From assembly GCF_030913635.1 (NCBI RefSeq), contig NZ_CP133188.1, positions 1,736,001-1,800,000 of the forward strand: 64,000 nt of DNA, written 5' to 3'. The translations under genes were made by a program, and so were the position numbers. Positions 27,820 to 37,186 of the stretch are shown here, one piece after another. Each line of letters begins with the position of its first letter. Position 1 is the stretch's first letter. Origin of the DNA: Sedimentibacter sp. MB35-C1. GTDB taxonomy: Bacteria > Bacillota > Clostridia > Tissierellales > Sedimentibacteraceae. The notes under the pieces were generated by a model, which saw only the letters and a list, made by a program, of their open reading frames with translations, was not told the DNA's origin and searched no databases.

Positions 27820-28446
27820 ATGACAAAAATATCGGTTAAAAACCTTGAATATTTTGGAATTATGGATGAGGCAACAAACGAAAATCACTTGGGCTGCAAC
27901 CAAGAATGGTATGTAAAGCACTGGCAGAGAACGGCAGGATGCGGACCTACGGTTGCTGCCGGTATTGTTTCATATTTACAAAAAAATCGTGGATTGGATA
28001 AGGCGAGTTGTCTTAAAATGATGGAAGAAATGTGGAATCATGTTACGCCAACAATAAGAGGAGTGAACAGCACCGGCTTATTTTGTAGCGGACTTTTATC
28101 ATACTCCGAAAGCAAAGGAATAAAGCTAATATATTACTCTGTAGATGTGCCGGAAAAAACAGATGTCAGACCGCCTTTTAAAAGTCTAATTGAATTTATT
28201 TCGTCATCCTTGATAAATGACATACCTGTAGCATTTCTAAACTTGTGTAACGGAGAAGAAAAGAATTTGGATAAATGGCACTGGGTTACAATTGCCGCTT
28301 TGGAATATGAAGATGATTTAAGCAGTGCATATGCAGAAATACTTGATGAAGGTATTAAAAAGCGAATTAATCTTTTGATGTGGTATAATACCACAATGCT
28401 GGGTGGAGGATTTGTTTCTTTTTATTTTGATGATAAAAATCACTGA
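27820..28446 (+). CDS. C39-like (papain-fold) cytosolic protein
   Basis: 208 residues, no signal peptide. A CGPT motif (C41) in TAGCGPTVAAGIVSYLQ starts a helix as in papain-like C39 peptidases. A later KWHWVTIAAL (H154) supplies the expected histidine, and a following acidic or Asn residue in W-Y-N is plausible. It might be a transglutaminase- or phytochelatin-synthase-like enzyme, or a peptidase. The start follows AAGGTGG. The partner is unknown. Its stop codon lies within a bidirectional terminator. Confidence 0.6.
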   Translation: MTKISVKNLEYFGIMDEATNENHLGCNQEWYVKHWQRTAGCGPTVAAGIVSYLQKNRGLDKASCLKMMEEMWNHVTPTIRGVNSTGLFCSGLLSYSESKGIKLIYYSVDVPEKTDVRPPFKSLIEFISSSLINDIPVAFLNLCNGEEKNLDKWHWVTIAALEYEDDLSSAYAEILDEGIKKRINLLMWYNTTMLGGGFVSFYFDDKNH

Positions 28447-28476
28447 TTAGGATAATGAGCCCAATCAGTGATTTTT
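28435..28476. terminator. Bidirectional terminator
   Basis: AAAAATCACTGATT pairs with AATCAGTGATTTTT; the stem of about 14 bases overlaps the upstream stop codon. It serves the C39-like gene and the convergent flavoprotein gene. Confidence 0.85.
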
Positions 28477-28490
28477 GATAATGTTAATGT

Positions 28491-29123
28491 TTATCGCACC
28501 ATATTCATATATGCCTTTCTTTCAGGCATGGGTTTTTCTATTTTGCCTTCGCTAAACTCTATCAGCTTCATGAGCCAAGCCATATTTTTCCCAAGGATTC
28601 GCATTATTTGAACACCTTCATCATCCTTGACAGCTTCACCAGGTCTCAAACCAAAAATAACGTTCCAGTAATTTGATGTGGGCATAAGCATTTCCGAATA
28701 GCTTATGTAATTGTTCAACTGGTTGAATGCAGGGATTCCTCCTGCTCGTCTGACTGATATAATGCCTGTTCCGACTTTATGTCTGAATAATCCGTTGTTT
28801 GCACTCCCCACATATGTAGCCCTGTCAAGAAAGGCTTTCATTGTGGAGCTGATATCTGAAAAGTGAACTGGAGAGCCAAATATTATTCCATCAGCTTCCT
28901 TCATTTTTTGAATCCATTCGTTAACTTCATCATCAATTATACATCGTTCATTCCTTGACTTAAAACAGGAGTTACATGCAGTGCAGCCTTGGATTTTCTT
29001 GTTTCCTACATGAATTATTTCAACATCAATATTTTCATTTATTAGTTGATCAGCCACTATTTTTATTGCTTCATAAGTATTTCCTTCTTTTCTGGGACTT
29101 CCGTTAAATGCAACTACTTTCAT
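28491..29123 (-). CDS. Flavodoxin-family NAD(P)H-dependent FMN protein, iron-sulfur type
   Basis: 210 residues. The opening GSPRKEGNTYEAI is the FMN phosphate loop of NAD(P)H-dependent FMN reductase/WrbA relatives. Cysteines C47, C50, C53 and C61 form C-x2-C-x2-C-x7-C, which fits the compact motif of archaeal iron-sulfur flavoproteins (C-x2-C-x2-C-x4-7-C). Later GSPVHFSDISSTMKAFLDR is the usual FMN ring loop. It likely transfers electrons between a ferredoxin-like and NAD(P)H partner. Monocistronic. Confidence 0.78.
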   Translation of the reverse strand: MKVVAFNGSPRKEGNTYEAIKIVADQLINENIDVEIIHVGNKKIQGCTACNSCFKSRNERCIIDDEVNEWIQKMKEADGIIFGSPVHFSDISSTMKAFLDRATYVGSANNGLFRHKVGTGIISVRRAGGIPAFNQLNNYISYSEMLMPTSNYWNVIFGLRPGEAVKDDEGVQIMRILGKNMAWLMKLIEFSEGKIEKPMPERKAYMNMVR

Positions 29124-29252
29124 AAATTACCTCCTAATCCATTTAAGACATTATACTAAAATGAGTAGCTTATTACAATGATAAGTGCAGTAATAATAGA
29201 AATATTTTAAGTATTGTGGTATAATAATACGACTCAATAAGCGGAGAATTAT

Positions 29253-30692
29253 ATGAAAAATAAAAGTAAAAAAATAAAAAATATAAAATTGCAATATTCT
29301 TTAAGAGTAATTGCTATATGTGTTATTTCAATGCTTTTATCAATTATTATTAACGAATTTGGAATAGGAAAAGAAAATACTTTGATGGTTTTTATCGTAG
29401 GGGTGCTGGCTGTTACCATAGTAACACGTGGTTATGTCTACAGTGCGATTGCATCAATAGTAAGTGTGCTCATGTTCAACTATATGTTTACAAATCCAGT
29501 GCACAGCCTTAAAATAAGCAATACTCATGATATAATCTTGATGATGTTTTTCCTGATTGCAGCTTTAATTTCAAGCAATATGACATCAAAGCTTCAATAT
29601 CAGACTGAATCATCCAAGCGAAATGAAAAAACAGCAAAATTTCTGTATGAAATAACAAAGGGTTTTTTAAATGTAACTGGGAACGAAAACATTATTTTGA
29701 AAGGTATAAAATATATAAAGGAATATGCCGGCTATGATTGTTGTGTAAAATTAAACAGTGAGGAAAAAGTATATGGTACGCTGGGATCGACAGAATATAG
29801 TAAAGTTGATGAAATAAACACTATGATTGTTCCTATAAAAGGAGTAGCAAAACAAAGAGGTGAAGTGCGAATCATTATTGACGACGCCTTATCACAGGAA
29901 AAGGACATGTTAATTAAAGCAATAGTTCATCAGATGGCTATAATCTTGGATAGAGAATTTATTTATGAAGAGAGGCAGAAGATAAAGGTTGACATTGAAA
30001 GAGAGCGTCTTAAGAGTACCCTCTTAAGGAGTATCTCTCATGATATCAGAACACCTCTGACAAGTATCAAGGGTGCTAGTGAACTAATATGCGATAATTA
30101 TGATAATTTAGACGAAGATAATATTAAGAAGTTGGCATCAGATATTTTTGATGAATCTACATGGTTAATGAAGACGGTACAAAATATTCTTGATATGACG
30201 AGAATAAATGAAGGTAAACTTACTGTTAAAAAAAGCTATGAAGCTGTAGATGATATTGTAAACCAAACGTTATCTCTGGTGCCGCGGCTTCATGAGACGG
30301 GAAGACTTTGCGTAAAAATTCCTGATGACATAGTTCTTGTTCCAGTTGACGGCAGGCTTTTTGTTCAGGTATTGGTTAATTTGCTGGATAATGAATATAA
30401 GCATGCAGGAGAAAGTGCCGATATATGCTTAAGTGTGTATGTTGAAGATAAATTTGTTATATTTGAAGTTTCAGATAACGGTATCGGAATTGAGCCATCT
30501 ATGTTGAATAAAATATTTGACGGATTTGTTACCCGCCAAAAGAACAATATTGCGGATGGCAGCTTAGGTGTCGGATTGGGGCTCAGCATATGCAAGGAAA
30601 TTGTAAATGCACACGGAGGTAAAATTATTGCTCATAATTTAAAAGCCGGAGGGGCATCATTCAAAATAGAGCTGCCTATGGAGGTTGAATAA
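29253..30692 (+). CDS. KdpD-like sensor histidine kinase, short form
   Basis: 479 residues. An N-terminal DUF4118 block of four spans (about 15-110) is the KdpD membrane domain. The GAF-like stretch 125-240 precedes HisKA with H263 in SISHDIRTPL, then HATPase with NLLDNEYKHAG, DNGIGIEP and GLGLSICKEIV. The usual N-terminal KdpD and universal-stress domains are missing, so this is a short KdpD. It senses ion or turgor signals, by analogy. It is coupled (TAATG) to the response regulator and lies beside potassium genes. Confidence 0.87.
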   Translation: MKNKSKKIKNIKLQYSLRVIAICVISMLLSIIINEFGIGKENTLMVFIVGVLAVTIVTRGYVYSAIASIVSVLMFNYMFTNPVHSLKISNTHDIILMMFFLIAALISSNMTSKLQYQTESSKRNEKTAKFLYEITKGFLNVTGNENIILKGIKYIKEYAGYDCCVKLNSEEKVYGTLGSTEYSKVDEINTMIVPIKGVAKQRGEVRIIIDDALSQEKDMLIKAIVHQMAIILDREFIYEERQKIKVDIERERLKSTLLRSISHDIRTPLTSIKGASELICDNYDNLDEDNIKKLASDIFDESTWLMKTVQNILDMTRINEGKLTVKKSYEAVDDIVNQTLSLVPRLHETGRLCVKIPDDIVLVPVDGRLFVQVLVNLLDNEYKHAGESADICLSVYVEDKFVIFEVSDNGIGIEPSMLNKIFDGFVTRQKNNIADGSLGVGLGLSICKEIVNAHGGKIIAHNLKAGGASFKIELPMEVE

Positions 30693-31381
30693 TGGATAAT
30701 AAAATATTGATAATAGAAGATGACAATAAAATAGTAAACTTTATGTCTATGGCATTAAAAGCTAAGGGATATTCAGTAATAACGGCAAGAAACGGAAACG
30801 ACGGAATTTTATATTTCTGTACCGAAACTCCTGATATCATTTTGCTGGATTTAGGACTTCCTGATATGGATGGTATTGAAATAATCAATAAGATAAGAGA
30901 AGTTTCAAATATTCCTGTAATAATTGTCTCGGCCAGAGAACAGGACTATGATAAAATTGCAGCTCTTGATGCAGGGGCAAATGATTATGTTACAAAGCCA
31001 TTTTCAATGGGAGAGCTGCTTGCCAGAATAAGAGTAATGGAAAGGCTTATTGAAAGGGAAGTTTTACCTTCTGCTGAAATTATTTACAAAGTGGACTACT
31101 TAACTGTCGATATTGAAAAGCACAGAGTATATGTTGACGACGATGAAATACACCTTACTCCGATTGAGTTCAAGCTGTTGGTTCTGCTTATTAAGAACAG
31201 GGGAAAGGTCATAACGCACAGCCAGATATCAAAAGAAGTATGGGGCTATGGTGAAACTGGGGATTCTAAAAGCATAAGAGTATTTATGGCAAGTCTGAGA
31301 AGAAAGATAGAAAAGGATACATCAAATCCAAGGTATATTCTAACTGAAATCGGTGTCGGATATCGATTTGCAGATGAATAA
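30692..31381 (+). CDS. KdpE-like OmpR-family response regulator
   Basis: 229 residues: a receiver domain with D10/D11, phospho-acceptor D53 in LLDLGLPD and K in YVTKPFS, then a winged-helix DNA-binding domain (about 130-227) with LTPIEFKLLVLLIKNRGKVITH. Its neighbours are a KdpD-like kinase and a convergent Ktr/Trk operon. Whether it regulates that operon is inference. Confidence 0.9.
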   Translation: MDNKILIIEDDNKIVNFMSMALKAKGYSVITARNGNDGILYFCTETPDIILLDLGLPDMDGIEIINKIREVSNIPVIIVSAREQDYDKIAALDAGANDYVTKPFSMGELLARIRVMERLIEREVLPSAEIIYKVDYLTVDIEKHRVYVDDDEIHLTPIEFKLLVLLIKNRGKVITHSQISKEVWGYGETGDSKSIRVFMASLRRKIEKDTSNPRYILTEIGVGYRFADE

Positions 31382-31418
31382 AAGTTTGATAATTTTGCCA
31401 ATAAGAAGCGCCTAAAAC

Positions 31419-31463
31419 GGCACGCAATCACAGTGTATTCAGATATGCGTGAGATTGCATGCC
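31419..31463. repeat. Inverted repeat in the kdpE-like/ktrA gap
   Basis: GGCACGCAATCAC (31419-31431) faces GTGAGATTGCATGCC (31449-31463) with two mismatches or bulges. There is no T-run. It lies in the 140-base gap between the convergent response-regulator and TrkA-like genes, and may be a terminator or a dispersed palindrome. Confidence 0.4.
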
Positions 31464-31521
31464 AGAGCGGGAAACCAATCAAAAAAATTTTAAACAGCTA
31501 AAATAATATATTTTATTTGAT

Positions 31522-32169
31522 TTATATATTATTTGTAAATTTTTGAACCTCTTCTGATTTGCCTATGATAATGAGATTATCATTTTTTCTGAATGTATAG
31601 TCTGCCTTTGGCATTGTAATATCATTTCCGTTTTTAATAAGAAGTATATTAATATGGTGTTTTTTTCTTACGTTTATGTTTTCTATACTTTGCCCTATCC
31701 AATCTTGAATAATTGGTGTTTCAAAAATAGAATATTCCTTAGTAATTGAAAAGTAATCCAGTACATTGTTTGCACTGCATCTTGTTGCTAGTTTCTCAGC
31801 CATGTCCTTATCTGGATATACAACTTCATCTGCGCCGTTTCTTAATAGAAATTTGGCCTGTATATCCCTGCTTGATTTTGATATTACATACTTGGCACCC
31901 AAATCCTTTAGTAAGGATGTTATTTCCAAGGAAGACTGAAAATTATCGCCTATTGTTACAAAGCAAATATCAAAATTGCTTACACCAAGTGCTTTTAATA
32001 CATCTTCTTTTGTGCAGTCTCCGATTTGAGCATCGGTGACTAGAGATGACATTTCATCTATAATAGATGCATCCTTATCAACTATCATTACGTCATTTTT
32101 TAAATCTGACATTTTCAGTGCTAGATGAATTCCAAATGCGCCCATTCCTATAATTAAAACTGATTTCAT
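31522..32169 (-). CDS. ktrA: KtrA/TrkA-type potassium channel regulatory (RCK) protein
   Basis: 215 residues: an RCK_N Rossmann domain (1-130) with GMGAFG (7-12) and acidic VDKD at the end of the second strand, then an RCK_C domain (about 140-215). It binds nucleotides such as NAD(H) or ATP and gates the KtrB/TrkH pore on the cytoplasmic side. It is eight bases downstream of the pore gene. Confidence 0.88.
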   Translation of the reverse strand: MKSVLIIGMGAFGIHLALKMSDLKNDVMIVDKDASIIDEMSSLVTDAQIGDCTKEDVLKALGVSNFDICFVTIGDNFQSSLEITSLLKDLGAKYVISKSSRDIQAKFLLRNGADEVVYPDKDMAEKLATRCSANNVLDYFSITKEYSIFETPIIQDWIGQSIENINVRKKHHINILLIKNGNDITMPKADYTFRKNDNLIIIGKSEEVQKFTNNI

Positions 32170-32177
32170 AATACCAC

Positions 32178-33521
32178 CTACCCGATAATGATTTTTCCGT
32201 ATGGTCTGCTAAGCGGAGATGTTTCTTTCTTCTCAGCCAAAACAGCAGCCATTGATAGCACTCCTACTTTTCCTCCGTACATGAGAAAAGAAATAATAAT
32301 TTTAGAAAAATTACTCAATAACGGTGTAATTCCCAATGATAAACCTACAGTGCCGATTGCTGAAATTACTTCAAACATTGTCTCTTCCAGACTGAAATTT
32401 TGAGTTGCACTTATAAGCATTACAGCTAAAAAAATAGTTGAAATATAAATGACCGTGATTGAGCTTGCTTTTTTCAGAGAATCTGTTTCAAGTCTTCTTT
32501 TAAATATAGTAATGTCTGAAAGCTGTTTTGCCGATGACAAAGCGGTGATGATTAATGTAACAAAAGTGGTTGTTTTTATACCGCCTGCTGTAGATCCGGG
32601 GCTGCCTCCGATAACCATTAATAGCATTGTAAGCAGATACCCTCCTTCAGACATGGTGTTTAAATTAATAGTGTTAAATCCAGCTGTTCTGGGAGTTATG
32701 GAATGAAATAGTGCTGACAGTATTTTCTCTCCCAAGCTCATATTTATCATGCTGTGCTTTGACTCCATTGCTAAAAATATGGCTGCACCTCCAAGTATCA
32801 GAGAAATTGTAGCAGTAAGAACTATTTTGGTATGAAGACTGTATTTGTTGAACTTAAATAAATTTTTAGCAATATCATCCCATACAACAAAACCAATACC
32901 TCCTATTACTATTAGCCCCATTACTACAATATTTACAACAACATCGTTCGCATATGAAGTGAGTGATGAAAATTGACCGTATCTGCCCATTAAGTCAAAG
33001 CCCGCATTGCAAAATGCGGAAACCGAATGAAATATACCGTTATATAATCCTAAGTAAAAGCCCATTTTAGGGCAAAAACGCAGTGAAAGAAATATGGTTC
33101 CTATACCCTCAAAAATAAATGTCCTTATTAAAATTTTTTTAACAAGAAATACAATTCCTCCTATTTTCAATGTATTTGCCGATTCCATCAATAATCTTCT
33201 TTCCTTCAAACCTATTTTTCTTCTAAGAAACATTGAAAATAAGGTAATTATAGTCATAAAGCCAAGTCCGCCTACCTGGATGAGCACAAGTATAACTATT
33301 TGTCCAAATAAAGACCAATGAGTATAGGTATCGTATAGTACAAGGCCGGTTACACAAAACGCAGAGGCTGCGGTAAACAGTGAATCTATATATGGTGTAG
33401 GCATGTTGTTTCTTGATGATACGGGAAGACTCAAAATAATTCCGCCTGCTATTATAATTAACAAAGTACCAAACACAATGATTTCAGTATAAGTCATTTT
33501 TAGGTTTTTTATTTTAAACAT
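32178..33521 (-). CDS. ktrB: KtrB/TrkH-type potassium uptake pore
   Basis: 447 residues. Four pore-loop motifs are visible: SAFCVTGLVLYDT, SAFCNAGFDLMG, TPRTAGFNTIN and SAIGTVGLSLGIT, each with the filter glycine. This fits the four M-P-M repeats of the Trk/Ktr/HKT superfamily. It carries K+ (or Na+-coupled K+) inward. The ATG lies one base after the upstream gene's stop, so it is translationally coupled. Confidence 0.92.
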   Translation of the reverse strand: MFKIKNLKMTYTEIIVFGTLLIIIAGGIILSLPVSSRNNMPTPYIDSLFTAASAFCVTGLVLYDTYTHWSLFGQIVILVLIQVGGLGFMTIITLFSMFLRRKIGLKERRLLMESANTLKIGGIVFLVKKILIRTFIFEGIGTIFLSLRFCPKMGFYLGLYNGIFHSVSAFCNAGFDLMGRYGQFSSLTSYANDVVVNIVVMGLIVIGGIGFVVWDDIAKNLFKFNKYSLHTKIVLTATISLILGGAAIFLAMESKHSMINMSLGEKILSALFHSITPRTAGFNTINLNTMSEGGYLLTMLLMVIGGSPGSTAGGIKTTTFVTLIITALSSAKQLSDITIFKRRLETDSLKKASSITVIYISTIFLAVMLISATQNFSLEETMFEVISAIGTVGLSLGITPLLSNFSKIIISFLMYGGKVGVLSMAAVLAEKKETSPLSRPYGKIIIG

Positions 33522-33522
33522 A

Positions 33523-33996
33523 TTATCTCCTTGTGGCCTTGCTGTTAAGCAGCATTAATACGATTTCAGGTGCTGAGGATTTACCGTCAATACACGTAAT
33601 TTCATTTTCTTCATATATATTTTTGTTATATTGCTTATTGCATATTGCAAATATAATTTTTATTTTCATTAATTTAGACGCTATAGAGCATGCTGTCAGA
33701 TTTTCCAAATCATCATCATTGACAGCCAGCATACAGCTGTAATTACGAGATTTATCCAATTTGTCAATATCGTTAAATATATCTGAAGTTAAATCCTTCT
33801 GCATCAGCAAACAGCTTATTTCACGGCATACAGCTTTGTTGCCGTATATTAAAACATCTTTTTCTCTGCAAACAAAATTATTATTGGAATTGCAGTGATT
33901 TTTAGAAGGAGGTTCGATAATAGTATAAATTTTATCTATAAAAATGAAATTAATTAAGAATACTGCAATAAGCGATAATATAATAGCTGCATTCAT
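33523..33996 (-). CDS. Membrane-tethered RCK-N-like protein of the Ktr operon
   Basis: 157 residues. One span at 1-20, a linker, then residues 44-157 which resemble a TrkA_N domain: a DVLIYGNKAVCREISCLLM strand-loop-helix (glycine loop partly lost), DLENLTACSIASKLMKIKIIFAICNK and a late conserved strand. It lacks the GxGxxG nucleotide loop. I do not know a named family. It is the first gene of the ktr operon and starts after AAGGAGC. It may modulate or assemble the channel. Confidence 0.5.
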   Translation of the reverse strand: MNAAIILSLIAVFLINFIFIDKIYTIIEPPSKNHCNSNNNFVCREKDVLIYGNKAVCREISCLLMQKDLTSDIFNDIDKLDKSRNYSCMLAVNDDDLENLTACSIASKLMKIKIIFAICNKQYNKNIYEENEITCIDGKSSAPEIVLMLLNSKATRR

Positions 33997-34400
33997 ACTG
34001 AGCTCCTTAATTTTATTGTAATTATTATAATATTATTGACATTAAAAATGTATTAAGTTATGTATCAGGGTGTTAATATTGTATAAGTAACAAAACGTAA
34101 AATAATTACTGCCTGATAATTGATACTTTGACTGTGCACTTTCTTTCGTAAAAATATATTATATGTGAATTCTGATTATATTAACCGGATTTTTACTTAT
34201 TTAATTTGTTATGAGCATAAAAAGCGGTATTTATCGATACAAACTCAATATCTGCAGTGAAATTAAATAATATTTGCGGATATTTAGTGGTAAAAAATCA
34301 AATTAACATTTAATTATTAATATTTTATTAAATTTTTAATGGTAATTTTTATTTTGGTTATACTATTTATGAAAAACTAATATTAAATTGGAGGATAATT
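33997..34400. other. 404-base AT-rich intergenic region
   Basis: It separates the divergent ktr operon and the FMN-binding lipoprotein gene, so both promoters lie here. A TTGACA-N17-TATGTA pair (34036-34064) faces right, and TATACT at 34359-34364 is a possible -10 of the lipoprotein gene with a poor -35. I see no c-di-AMP (ydaO-type) or other riboswitch core and no plausible gene. Confidence 0.4.
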
Positions 34401-34832
34401 ATGAAGAAACTTGCATTATTGGTATGTGTACTTATGTTGCTCAGCATGGTGGCATGTACTGAGGATAAAAATAATGATTTGACTGAAGATATTACTGACG
34501 GCAATAATTCAGTAGGTAATGATGTTGTTGATGAGGGTACGGTTACAGATAATGAAACTAATGATATGACCGACACCCAGACTCTGACAGGGACTGCTCA
34601 AGGATATGGCGGAGAAGTGAGCGTAACAGTAAAAGTTAGCGGCGATGACATTATGTCTGTTGAGGCTGTGGGTGAAAAGGAAACCCAGGGTGTAGGTTCT
34701 AATGCCTTAGATCAGCTTCCGGCAAAAATAGAAGAAGCTGATTCGACAGATGTAGAAAGTATTTCCGGAGCAACTGTTACGAGCGATGCTATTAAAGAAG
34801 CCGTTGACAATGCTTTAGAAGGAATGAAATAA
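34401..34832 (+). CDS. FMN-binding-domain lipoprotein
   Basis: 143 residues: a lipoprotein signal with C19 in SMVACT, an acidic Asp/Asn/Thr linker to about 62, and a single FMN_bind domain. The flavinylation motif SGATVT lies at 122-127, so T127 is the expected attachment site by ApbE. FMN-bind proteins include RnfG, NqrC and extracytosolic electron carriers. No rnf, fap or apbE is in the window. The start follows TTGGAGGA. It is transcribed alone. Confidence 0.85.
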   Translation: MKKLALLVCVLMLLSMVACTEDKNNDLTEDITDGNNSVGNDVVDEGTVTDNETNDMTDTQTLTGTAQGYGGEVSVTVKVSGDDIMSVEAVGEKETQGVGSNALDQLPAKIEEADSTDVESISGATVTSDAIKEAVDNALEGMK

Positions 34833-34847
34833 ATATGTTGAATGAAA

Positions 34848-34888
34848 AACCAGGTTGGACTTAATCATAAAGTCTAACCTGGTTTTTT
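34848..34888 (+). terminator. Terminator after FMN-binding lipoprotein
   Basis: AACCAGGTT-x-GACTT (34848-) pairs with AAGTC-x-AACCTGGTT and is followed by TTTTTT. A strong 15-base stem. Confidence 0.9.
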
Positions 34889-34923
34889 ATATACTTAGTT
34901 TTAACTATTTAGTTTTAACTATT

Positions 34924-35358
34924 TTAATTATATACTGAGGTTAATATAAGTGATGTTGATGTTTCTTTAATGCAGTCAATTTTATGTAGTTCGTCCTGCA
35001 AGGACTTTAATCCAAGTGGTGATATGCATCTTACTTTCATCAATATGCACCATGTTCCTGTAACAATGTGGCACTCTTCAATAATGAGATCGGCAATTTT
35101 AAGGTTTTTTAATTGCTCTAAAAATTTATCATAATTAGTGGTTCGCACTCTTAAAGAAATCATTGCATTAGTCTTATAACCGAGCATGGACCAATTTATT
35201 TCGGCCTTGTATCCGGAAATTATTCCTTGCTCTTCGAGTTTTGTAACTCTGTTATGAATGGCAGGTCTGGACAAATTTAAGCGTTTTGATAATTCTTCAT
35301 GCGAAATTCTGCCTTCTTTTTCAATATTTTCAATTATAAGCATATCCAATGAATCCAT
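34924..35358 (-). CDS. Lrp/AsnC-family transcription regulator
   Basis: 144 residues: an N-terminal AsnC helix-turn-helix (about 5-55, with LSRPAIHNRVTKLEEQGIISGYKAEIN) and a C-terminal RAM ligand domain (about 70-142, TGTWCILMKVRC). The family regulates amino-acid metabolism, often with an amino acid as ligand. It reads away from the histidine ammonia-lyase gene, so it probably controls that gene and itself from the shared 298-base gap. Confidence 0.85.
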   Translation of the reverse strand: MDSLDMLIIENIEKEGRISHEELSKRLNLSRPAIHNRVTKLEEQGIISGYKAEINWSMLGYKTNAMISLRVRTTNYDKFLEQLKNLKIADLIIEECHIVTGTWCILMKVRCISPLGLKSLQDELHKIDCIKETSTSLILTSVYN

Positions 35359-35510
35359 TTTATTACCTCTTAAACCAATTAATAATTTTATATTGGAACA
35401 AATCTAACATTGTTTTAATATAGCATATCGGAACATGGTTTGCAAATTTTTTTTTATAAACAATACGTAATAAACTTATATACATGTACAGAAATACACC
35501 TTTTAAACAT

Positions 35511-35539
35511 TTGACAATTTTGCAAAATTATAATATAAT
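35511..35539 (+). promoter_or_regulatory. hutH promoter
   Basis: TTGACA at 35511-35516, 17-base spacer, TATAAT at 35534-35539. This is a full consensus promoter giving a leader of about 110 bases before the start codon. Confidence 0.9.
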
Positions 35540-35581
35540 TTAAGTATTGAAATACGCCTATAGACATGAGATATGAGGGGG

Positions 35582-35629
35582 CAGATTTTAGTGTAGTTTT
35601 TGTACACTGAAATTTGTCCTTATTTTTTT
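35582..35629 (+). terminator. Intrinsic-terminator-like hairpin in the hutH leader
   Basis: CAGATTTTAGTGTA (35582-35595) pairs with TACACTGAAATTTG (35603-35616), all pairs or G-U, then CCTTATTTTTTT to 35629. It lies between promoter and start codon, so hutH may be controlled by premature termination. I see no T-box and no histidine-rich leader peptide. Confidence 0.6.
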
Positions 35630-35656
35630 AAAAAATATTAAATTTAGGAGGTAAAA

Positions 35657-37186
35657 ATGAGCAAAGTAATAATTACGGGAAATACTTTAACTCTTGAAGA
35701 GGTGGCAGCTGTTTGCAGGAATTTCTATGAGGTTGAATTATCAAAATCGGCAGTTGATAAAATAATTGCATCAAGAAAAATAGTGGATGAGTTTGTTGAA
35801 AACGAAGATGTTGTCTACGGCATAACAACGGGTTTTGGGAAGTTTAGCGATGTTTCAATTTCAAAAGAAGAATCGAAGCTTCTTCAAAAAAATCTTATTG
35901 TGACTCATGCGGTTGGTGCCGGAAAACCTTTCGATACAGAAATAGTAAGAGGAATAATACTGCTTAGAATAAATAATCTGGCGAAGGGGTATTCGGGCGC
36001 CAAGCTTGAAACTATCCAAACTATGATAGATATGCTTAATAAGGGAGTGCATCCCGTAGTTCCTCAAAAGGGTTCTCTGGGAGCCAGCGGAGACTTAGCC
36101 CCTTTATCTCATATGGTTCTTCCAATGATAGGCCTTGGAATGGCTGAATATGCAGGTGAGGTTATGAGTGGGGCCGAAGCTATGAAAAAGGCAGGTATAC
36201 CTATAATTGAACTTACTTCAAAAGAAGGTCTTGCATTGATTAACGGTACTCAGGTTATGACTTCAGTGGGAGCATTGACTGTCTACGATGCGATTAACCT
36301 TTTAAAAGTATCGGATATAGCGGCTTCACTGAGTTTTGAAGCACATAACGGTATAGTAGATGCACTTGATCATAAAGTTCATGACGTGCGTCCTCATAAA
36401 GGGCAGAAGGATACGGCCAGAATTATGCTTCAGTTGCTTGCTGAAAGCAAAATGACAACAAGGCAGGGAGATATAAGAGTTCAGGATGCGTATTCTCTTC
36501 GATGTACTCCTCAGGTTCACGGTGCAAGCAAGGATGCAATAAATTATGTAAAGGAAAAAGTTGAAATAGAAATTAATTCAGTAACCGATAATCCAATAAT
36601 ATTCCCTGAAACCAGAGAAGGAATATCAGGCGGCAACTTCCACGGACAGCCTATGGCGCTGAGCTTTGATTTCTTGGGTATTGCTTTAGCAGAGCTTGCG
36701 GATATATCTGAAAGAAGACTTGAGAGGCTGGTAAATCCGTCGCTAAGCGGACTCCCGGCATTTCTTGTTGAACACGGAGGATTGAACTCCGGATTTATGA
36801 TTGTACAATATTCGGCTGCAGCTCTTGTATCCGAAAATAAAGTTCTTGCTCATCCTGCATCTGTTGACAGTATTCCATCATCTGCTAATCAAGAGGACCA
36901 TGTTTCCATGGGAACCATAGCGGCAAGAAAGGCAAAAGAAATAATGGAGAATGTGAGAAGGGTGCTTGCTATGGAGATAATGTGCGCTTGCCAAGGAATT
37001 GATCTGAGAGGAAACAGGGGATTGGGCGATGGTACAGAGCCGGTATACAACGCAGTCAGACAGCGTGTTCCAATGCTAAAAGAAGACAGACCTCTTTATG
37101 AAGACATTAATAAGTGCGAAGAACTTATCATGGATAATACTATTATAAGTGCCAGTGAGCAGGCGGCCGGAAGTATTGAATTTTAA
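35657..37186 (+). CDS. hutH: Histidine ammonia-lyase
   Basis: 509 residues, the usual family length. The MIO cofactor triad A143-S144-G145 is in SLGASGDLAPLSHM, with the catalytic Y54 in VYGITTGFG. TH at 83-84 matches the S-H position of histidine ammonia-lyases rather than the H-L of tyrosine lyases, and SSANQEDHVSMG carries the HAL-type glutamate. It converts histidine to trans-urocanate and ammonia. No hutU, hutI or hutG is adjacent, so other genes elsewhere must use urocanate. Start after AGGAGG. Confidence 0.92.
   Translation: MSKVIITGNTLTLEEVAAVCRNFYEVELSKSAVDKIIASRKIVDEFVENEDVVYGITTGFGKFSDVSISKEESKLLQKNLIVTHAVGAGKPFDTEIVRGIILLRINNLAKGYSGAKLETIQTMIDMLNKGVHPVVPQKGSLGASGDLAPLSHMVLPMIGLGMAEYAGEVMSGAEAMKKAGIPIIELTSKEGLALINGTQVMTSVGALTVYDAINLLKVSDIAASLSFEAHNGIVDALDHKVHDVRPHKGQKDTARIMLQLLAESKMTTRQGDIRVQDAYSLRCTPQVHGASKDAINYVKEKVEIEINSVTDNPIIFPETREGISGGNFHGQPMALSFDFLGIALAELADISERRLERLVNPSLSGLPAFLVEHGGLNSGFMIVQYSAAALVSENKVLAHPASVDSIPSSANQEDHVSMGTIAARKAKEIMENVRRVLAMEIMCACQGIDLRGNRGLGDGTEPVYNAVRQRVPMLKEDRPLYEDINKCEELIMDNTIISASEQAAGSIEF

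Follow-up and report, generated by a model that had tools for sequence, protein, structure and literature searches.

The closest sequence relatives in the PDB of the protein analyzed here are TM1088A and TM1088B, the two subunits of the TrkA ring of Thermotoga maritima (PDB 3l4b, 2g1u). In the sections of PMC4380455 that deal with this ring, TM1088A is an RCK_N-only subunit that can occupy the gating ring next to TM1088B, which has both RCK_N and C domains. AMP is bound by TM1088A but not by TM1088B, one of the two thus being nucleotide-blind. The AMP contacts given there for TM1088A include Gly14, Gly16, Gly19, Asp37, Thr80, and Arg105, and Leu80, Phe81, and Met111 are named at the TM1088A:TM1088B interface. 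The protein described below, referred to as X, resembles TM1088A in that its gene neighbors those of a full RCK subunit and of a TrkH/KtrB channel. Unlike the T. maritima subunits as described in those sections, X has a membrane span and a partner, KtrB, of the Ktr type, and here it is X that has lost the nucleotide-binding loop and KtrA that keeps it.

PhoU links the Pst transporter to PhoR, and which signal is sensed by KdpD-type kinases is a long-running question. For S. aureus KdpD, binding of c-di-AMP through the Usp domain is reported (PMC4686210).

The window is a stretch of 64,000 nucleotides from Sedimentibacter sp. MB35-C1 that sits on a single 3.6-Mb contig, and all coordinates refer to it. 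The features discussed below are as follows.

33523..33996, minus strand: X, a predicted 157-aa membrane-tethered, GxGxxG-less RCK_N-like protein (ATG start)
33934..33993, minus strand: predicted membrane span of X, residues 2-21 (hydropathy)
33526..33861, minus strand: RCK_N-like domain of X, residues 46-157 (profile alignment; best conserved, 86-133)
34003..34008, minus strand: ribosome-binding site of X, AAGGAG (read from the sequence)
34052..34076, minus strand: tandem TTAAC-N15-TTAAT box, candidate response-regulator operator (from genus upstream regions)
32178..33521, minus strand: ktrB, TrkH-family channel subunit (TIGR00933, 339.5 bits; cut-off 331)
31522..32169, minus strand: ktrA, RCK_N + TrkA_C subunit with an intact GMGAFG
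29253..30692, plus strand: histidine kinase with DUF4118, HisKA, and HATPase_c (N-terminal KdpD and Usp domains absent)
30692..31381, plus strand: KdpE-like response regulator (NCBIfam KdpE, 235 bits; cut-off 325)

X is the first gene of a ktr operon and carries one predicted membrane span

The stop codon of X and the start of ktrB are separated by a single base (33522). The operon order is X-ktrB-ktrA, with X first since the next listed upstream gene (34401) is divergent; the position at the head of the operon, one base ahead of ktrB, had been claimed in a preliminary description of this DNA and was confirmed from the ORF coordinates. The divergent gene (34401-34832, plus strand) encodes an RnfG-like FMN-binding protein and has a similar counterpart, likewise divergent from X, in some genus relatives (L189 and L190). 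Over window positions 28000-36000, Rfam gave zero matches at E ≤ 1, and thus none to the known riboswitches for K+ or c-di-AMP.

Hydropathy analysis of X yielded one hydrophobic segment, at approximately residues 2-20 (Kyte-Doolittle mean 2.56; best value elsewhere in the protein 1.51), which bears out the earlier claim of one membrane span. The span begins inside the first seven residues, and Lys or Arg ahead of it is absent in 22 of 23 aligned family members; because of this absence, the domain is predicted to be cytoplasmic by the positive-inside rule. The 23-row alignment leaves out the G015 copy (same locus as L001), the second near-identical G011/G007 copy, the G289 duplicate of G489, and the truncated copies of G020 and G373.

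A Sedimentibacter MAG encodes a protein 97% identical to window X. Comparison of window X with the G015 copy (97% identical) gave six synonymous and four nonsynonymous changes (dS 0.068, dN 0.011); as judged from these substitutions, X is a constrained gene, with a dN/dS estimate that is imprecise because the changes are few. AlphaFold2, run with a two-row alignment, returned a mean pLDDT of 38.4, with values above 70 for the first helix only (approximately residues 1-14). A spurious ORF was ruled out by conservation of the gene at 28 loci, and a pseudogene by the fact that two copies are truncated (G020 and G373) and the others open. A toxin or phage gene was rejected, there being no pointer to either.

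The X family is related to RCK_N domains at the profile level

Taken alone, window X scored 15.9 bits against TrkA_N (PF02254) over residues 85-132 (E 0.017), the curated cut-off being 23.8 bits. Across the family, 8 of the 23 members reached TrkA_N at E ≤ 0.01, the best at 2.3e-9. TrkA-type chains were absent among the matches of window X in a phmmer search against the PDB. A profile built from 14 members matched TrkA-type proteins in many genomes as well as TM1088A in the PDB (2.5e-8), and the 23-member profile matched TM1088A at 2.7e-9 and, across positions 38-146 of its 153, TM1088B at 7.5e-8. These profile matches indicate that the X family is related to RCK_N domains. The TrkA_N-like domain proposed in the preliminary description thus holds at the family level, and the RCK similarity that it expected of a profile search was found, with the comparison to the partner KtrA as the exception: hhalign gave a probability of 2.3% (E 0.021), a weak match, yet one over the matching region. 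With a match of this size, X is not a recent copy of KtrA.

In a tree of RCK_N domains, a branch with 100% bootstrap support set all 23 X rows off from KtrA and from the Trk-locus domains of A and B type. The order within the family is unsure, because a number of X branches are long, two of them joining each other.

None of the 23 members has a complete GxGxxG, and window X retains the first glycine only, in agreement with the loop loss noted beforehand. The motif is intact in 12 of 12 partner KtrA proteins (invariant G8, G10, and G13). A search of X for a TrkA_C domain gave no match. The idea that X is a nucleotide-binding KtrA paralogue was rejected, the loop being lost in every member. Compared with KtrA and TrkA_N, X therefore shares RCK_N fold kinship and the operon but has a span, lacks GxGxxG and TrkA_C, and, for the window copy, stays under the Pfam cut-off. 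No Pfam or NCBIfam model scored above its own cut-off on X, and a search of the open-access literature turned up neither a named family nor any description of an RCK_N-only protein that is anchored in the membrane and partners KtrB.

X had been called poorly conserved, which is correct for overall identity (13-44% between window X and the 22 other members) but not for D96, N99, and N120, which are invariant in the family. Mean entropy was 1.97 bits for residues 86-133, 2.07 bits for the span, and 2.60 bits for the GxGxxG half. TM1088A Thr80 and Arg105 align with N93 and I118 of window X, and Arg survives at the I118 position in 5 of 23 members (L171, L173, L174, L181, and L183). In a count along the profile alignment, the TM1088B residues opposite D96, N99, and L100 of X are D76, N79, and L80, and M111 stands opposite N131. 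X keeps the stretch that aligns to the TM1088B interface, so the face for assembly into an octameric ring would appear to survive. By this measure of conservation, the half of X with the ring-assembly residues is the best kept, and the nucleotide half has decayed. C119 is present in 21 of the 23 members and C103 in 17; L172 is without both.

X accompanies one type of KtrB locus

The 28 X loci found belong to nine family groups in two classes. Thirteen are in the genus (12 of 25 genomes, G011 having two), four in group g50 of another family, nine elsewhere in the class together with a truncated one in G373, and one in another class (G724). Presence of X in related ktr operons, as the preliminary description would have it, was seen at 13 of 13 complete-enough close-type KtrB loci of the genus (at least 65% identity), where X precedes ktrB and is truncated once; a fourteenth close locus (G006), a fragment at a contig end, was left out of this count. 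Genus KtrB loci of 38-44% identity had X in 0 of 16 cases. By eye, the distant genus ktrB paralogues L163, L164, L165, and L153 lie just after a ribosomal protein L20-like gene.

X lies beside ktrB in six of the nine family groups (f1, f5, f39, f41, f63, and f171). The wider context was read at 22 of the 28 known X loci, namely 20 fetched together, the window, and G373; the six outside this count are those of G015, G007, G003, and G022 and both of G011. KtrB occurred within the stretch read at 21 of these 22 loci and KtrA at all 22. Most families outside the genus have these genes on one strand in the order X-ktrB-ktrA-kinase-regulator. X stands directly before the kinase in G289 and G489, with ktrB-ktrA divergent, and in G373, it is placed between ktrA and the kinase and cut to approximately 86 codons. 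In G553, X precedes the kinase with ktrA divergent; at E ≤ 1e-20, this genome has a single KtrB match, which lies at 64-65 kb of the contig, more than 1.5 Mb from X at 1749 kb. The G553 kinase reads as two overlapping ORFs and may be broken.

At the G020 locus (L190:6854-7000), the X span and approximately 25 further residues run in frame into ktrB, and the RCK-like domain is missing. This is possibly a natural fusion, or else a deletion or draft artefact, with unresolved bases nearby.

X tracks a DUF4118-type kinase and a KdpE-like regulator

In the window, the kinase and regulator genes are convergent with X-ktrB-ktrA. A DUF4118-type kinase and a KdpE-like regulator similar to those of the window were found at 22 of 22 X loci read in wide context. 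At the nearest class KtrB loci without X, the kinase was found at E < 1e-40 in 0 of 24 and the regulator in 1 of 24; this one, G278, has the KtrB closest to that of the genus (66%) and a regulator after ktrA, with neither X nor kinase. In 21 of these controls, the view on the two sides of ktrB extends to 700 bases or more upstream and 4.7 kb or more downstream, and three are limited by their contigs (G256 and G486 show approximately 0.8 kb past ktrB, and G286 nothing before it).

On the KtrB tree, the joint state of X and kinase changes six times. X and kinase changed together in five of five independent pairs, for which the two-sided sign test gives p 0.0625, the floor for five pairs, on a tree made by a quick method; the pairs were taken on starred branches, and X and kinase states are identical in all rows, with no independent scoring per event. 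The agreement stands at five of five after removal of the three contig-limited controls. The genome-wise association of X with the kinase was also put to a Fisher test, which was set aside, as the genomes are related, the counts were hand-tallied, and the remainder held the genome of the window itself.

The reverse search, for the kinase in 291 class genomes, gave eight full-length matches of at least 39% identity besides that of the window, seven of them in X loci. The eighth stands with a regulator in G517 (44% identity), and the 16 kb read at this locus contain no X and no ktrB. A kinase and regulator without X count against a coupling role for X.

In two of the controls without X, G354 and G376, ktrB is preceded by an ORF for a soluble RCK_N-only protein, and a different kinase and regulator are present; the one kinase of this type that was scanned has 4HB, HAMP, and PAS domains. 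These ORFs, L205:7361-7792(-) and L207:7364-7786(-), lie directly before ktrB and after the regulator and PAS/HAMP-type kinase, and they represent a second, different arrangement of an RCK_N-only protein with a two-component system. Trk-type loci L246, L247, L248, L250, L251, and L252 encode an RCK_N-only protein with a full TrkA and TrkH, and a kinase and regulator adjoin all six, three of which are biased, having been picked via the kinase search. The kinases near RCK_N-only proteins in Trk-type loci may reflect the clustering of potassium genes, nothing more. A TPR-like small protein is encoded at L260:1916-2350(-) and L022:490-882; in these Trk-type loci, its gene separates the regulator from the RCK_N-only protein.

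Kinases of loci with intact X lack KdpD and Usp domains, and a tandem box precedes X

KdpD and Usp domains were absent from eight of eight kinases scanned at loci with an intact X, that of the window included. The window kinase matches NCBIfam KdpD at 232 bits (cut-off 1123), and the match is limited to the C-terminal half of KdpD. The kinase of G373, where X is truncated, carries a Usp domain (E 1.9e-5); this combination fits replacement of the missing cytoplasmic sensor by X, as one case and not a rule. No KdpA was found in the Sedimentibacter genome, which leaves the regulator without a Kdp pump to control. The window pair thus shares with KdpD/KdpE the DUF4118 membrane domain with HisKA and HATPase and a regulator nearest to KdpE, but differs in that the kinase has neither KdpD nor Usp domain and adjoins KtrAB in a genome without KdpA.

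A tandem box of the form TTAA[CT]-N15-17-TTAA[CT], a pattern picked after inspecting an alignment, occurs upstream of X in 8 of 11 genus regions, compared with a mean of 0.49 and a maximum of 3 in 500 rounds of first-order shuffling. Outside the genus, it occurs at 2 of 13 X loci, which is within reach of the shuffles, and seven further regions upstream of genes in the window are all without it. Binding of the regulator at the tandem TTAAC box is assumed in what follows.

Discussion

Two aspects of this system are new. X tracks the sensor kinase as well as ktrB, and an RCK_N module has become membrane-bound and nucleotide-blind inside a module of KtrAB and a two-component system. We tentatively read X as a membrane-tethered subunit that couples the KtrA ring to the kinase, an explanation to which we give slightly less than even odds and whose mechanism we infer. 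A signaling role is favored over that of a channel subunit because the kinase and regulator give the strongest signal in the gene context. KtrB, KtrA, the short DUF4118 histidine kinase, the KdpE-like regulator, and X would form one module, in which the cytoplasmic domain of X would use its ring-assembly face to bind either the KtrA gating ring or KtrB, and the span would lie next to the four-helix DUF4118 domain of the kinase. X would then inform the kinase, in a PhoU-like manner, of the state that the channel is in, and may stand in for the KdpD and Usp cytoplasmic domains that these kinases lack; the regulator, acting on the tandem box before X, would adjust the X-ktrB-ktrA operon. The principle that an adaptor reports the state of a transporter to a histidine kinase may be common to this module and PstSCAB-PhoU-PhoR, although the proteins are unrelated and the coupling proposed here is drawn entirely from gene context.

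The main rival explanation, less probable in our view but serious by analogy with the TM1088A precedent and given the adjacency to ktrB, is that X belongs to the channel itself as a structural or gating component, forming a mixed ring with KtrA and fixing this ring to KtrB through its span, with the kinase as a mere neighbor. That the best PDB relatives are both TM1088 ring subunits and that the interface residues fall in the best conserved half of X would suit such a subunit. The place of X as first gene, one base before ktrB, and its position next to ktrB in most lineages (six of nine family groups) fit a channel subunit equally well, and the in-frame run of the G020 span into ktrB points the same way. 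A channel subunit is harder to reconcile with the 24 of 24 near KtrB loci that are without X and presumably work with KtrA alone, with G553, where X stays with the kinase away from ktrB, and with the missing TrkA_C and the weak direct match to the KtrA profile.

It is improbable that the role of X is to help KtrB or the kinase, through its span, to assemble or stay stable, with an RCK-like domain that is decaying and of little importance; KdpF is the comparison for such a role. The span is kept and most of the domain lost in two lineages (G020 and G373), though each truncation comes from one draft genome, and the GxGxxG half is indeed variable, but no aligned member departs from D96, N99, or N120, and conservation is higher over residues 86-133 than over the span itself. 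Still less probable is a reading in which X is itself a sensor, for example of an ion or, via C103 and C119, of redox state, and signals to the kinase with the channel untouched. The frequency of the two cysteines and the occurrence of X, kinase, and regulator without ktrB in G553 speak for it; against it, the cysteines are not invariant, as L172 illustrates, and the X model, at a mean pLDDT of 38, allowed no ligand site to be obtained.

Returning to X as a coupling subunit, the broader proposal, which we hold with more reserve than the coupling role itself, is that clostridial and related bacteria may have a self-reporting K+ channel, in which a nucleotide-blind, ring-detached, membrane-tethered RCK module would read the KtrA ring and control a sensor-less KdpD-like kinase, the signal being the state of the channel and not the ion. 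Because X, a gating ring-like subunit, is missing where the kinase is missing, the idea that a kinase reads the state of a K+ channel becomes testable. The idea of a two-subunit ring would be extended from soluble to membrane-tethered RCK modules, and the X family, now missed by automatic annotation, would gain a name and a role.
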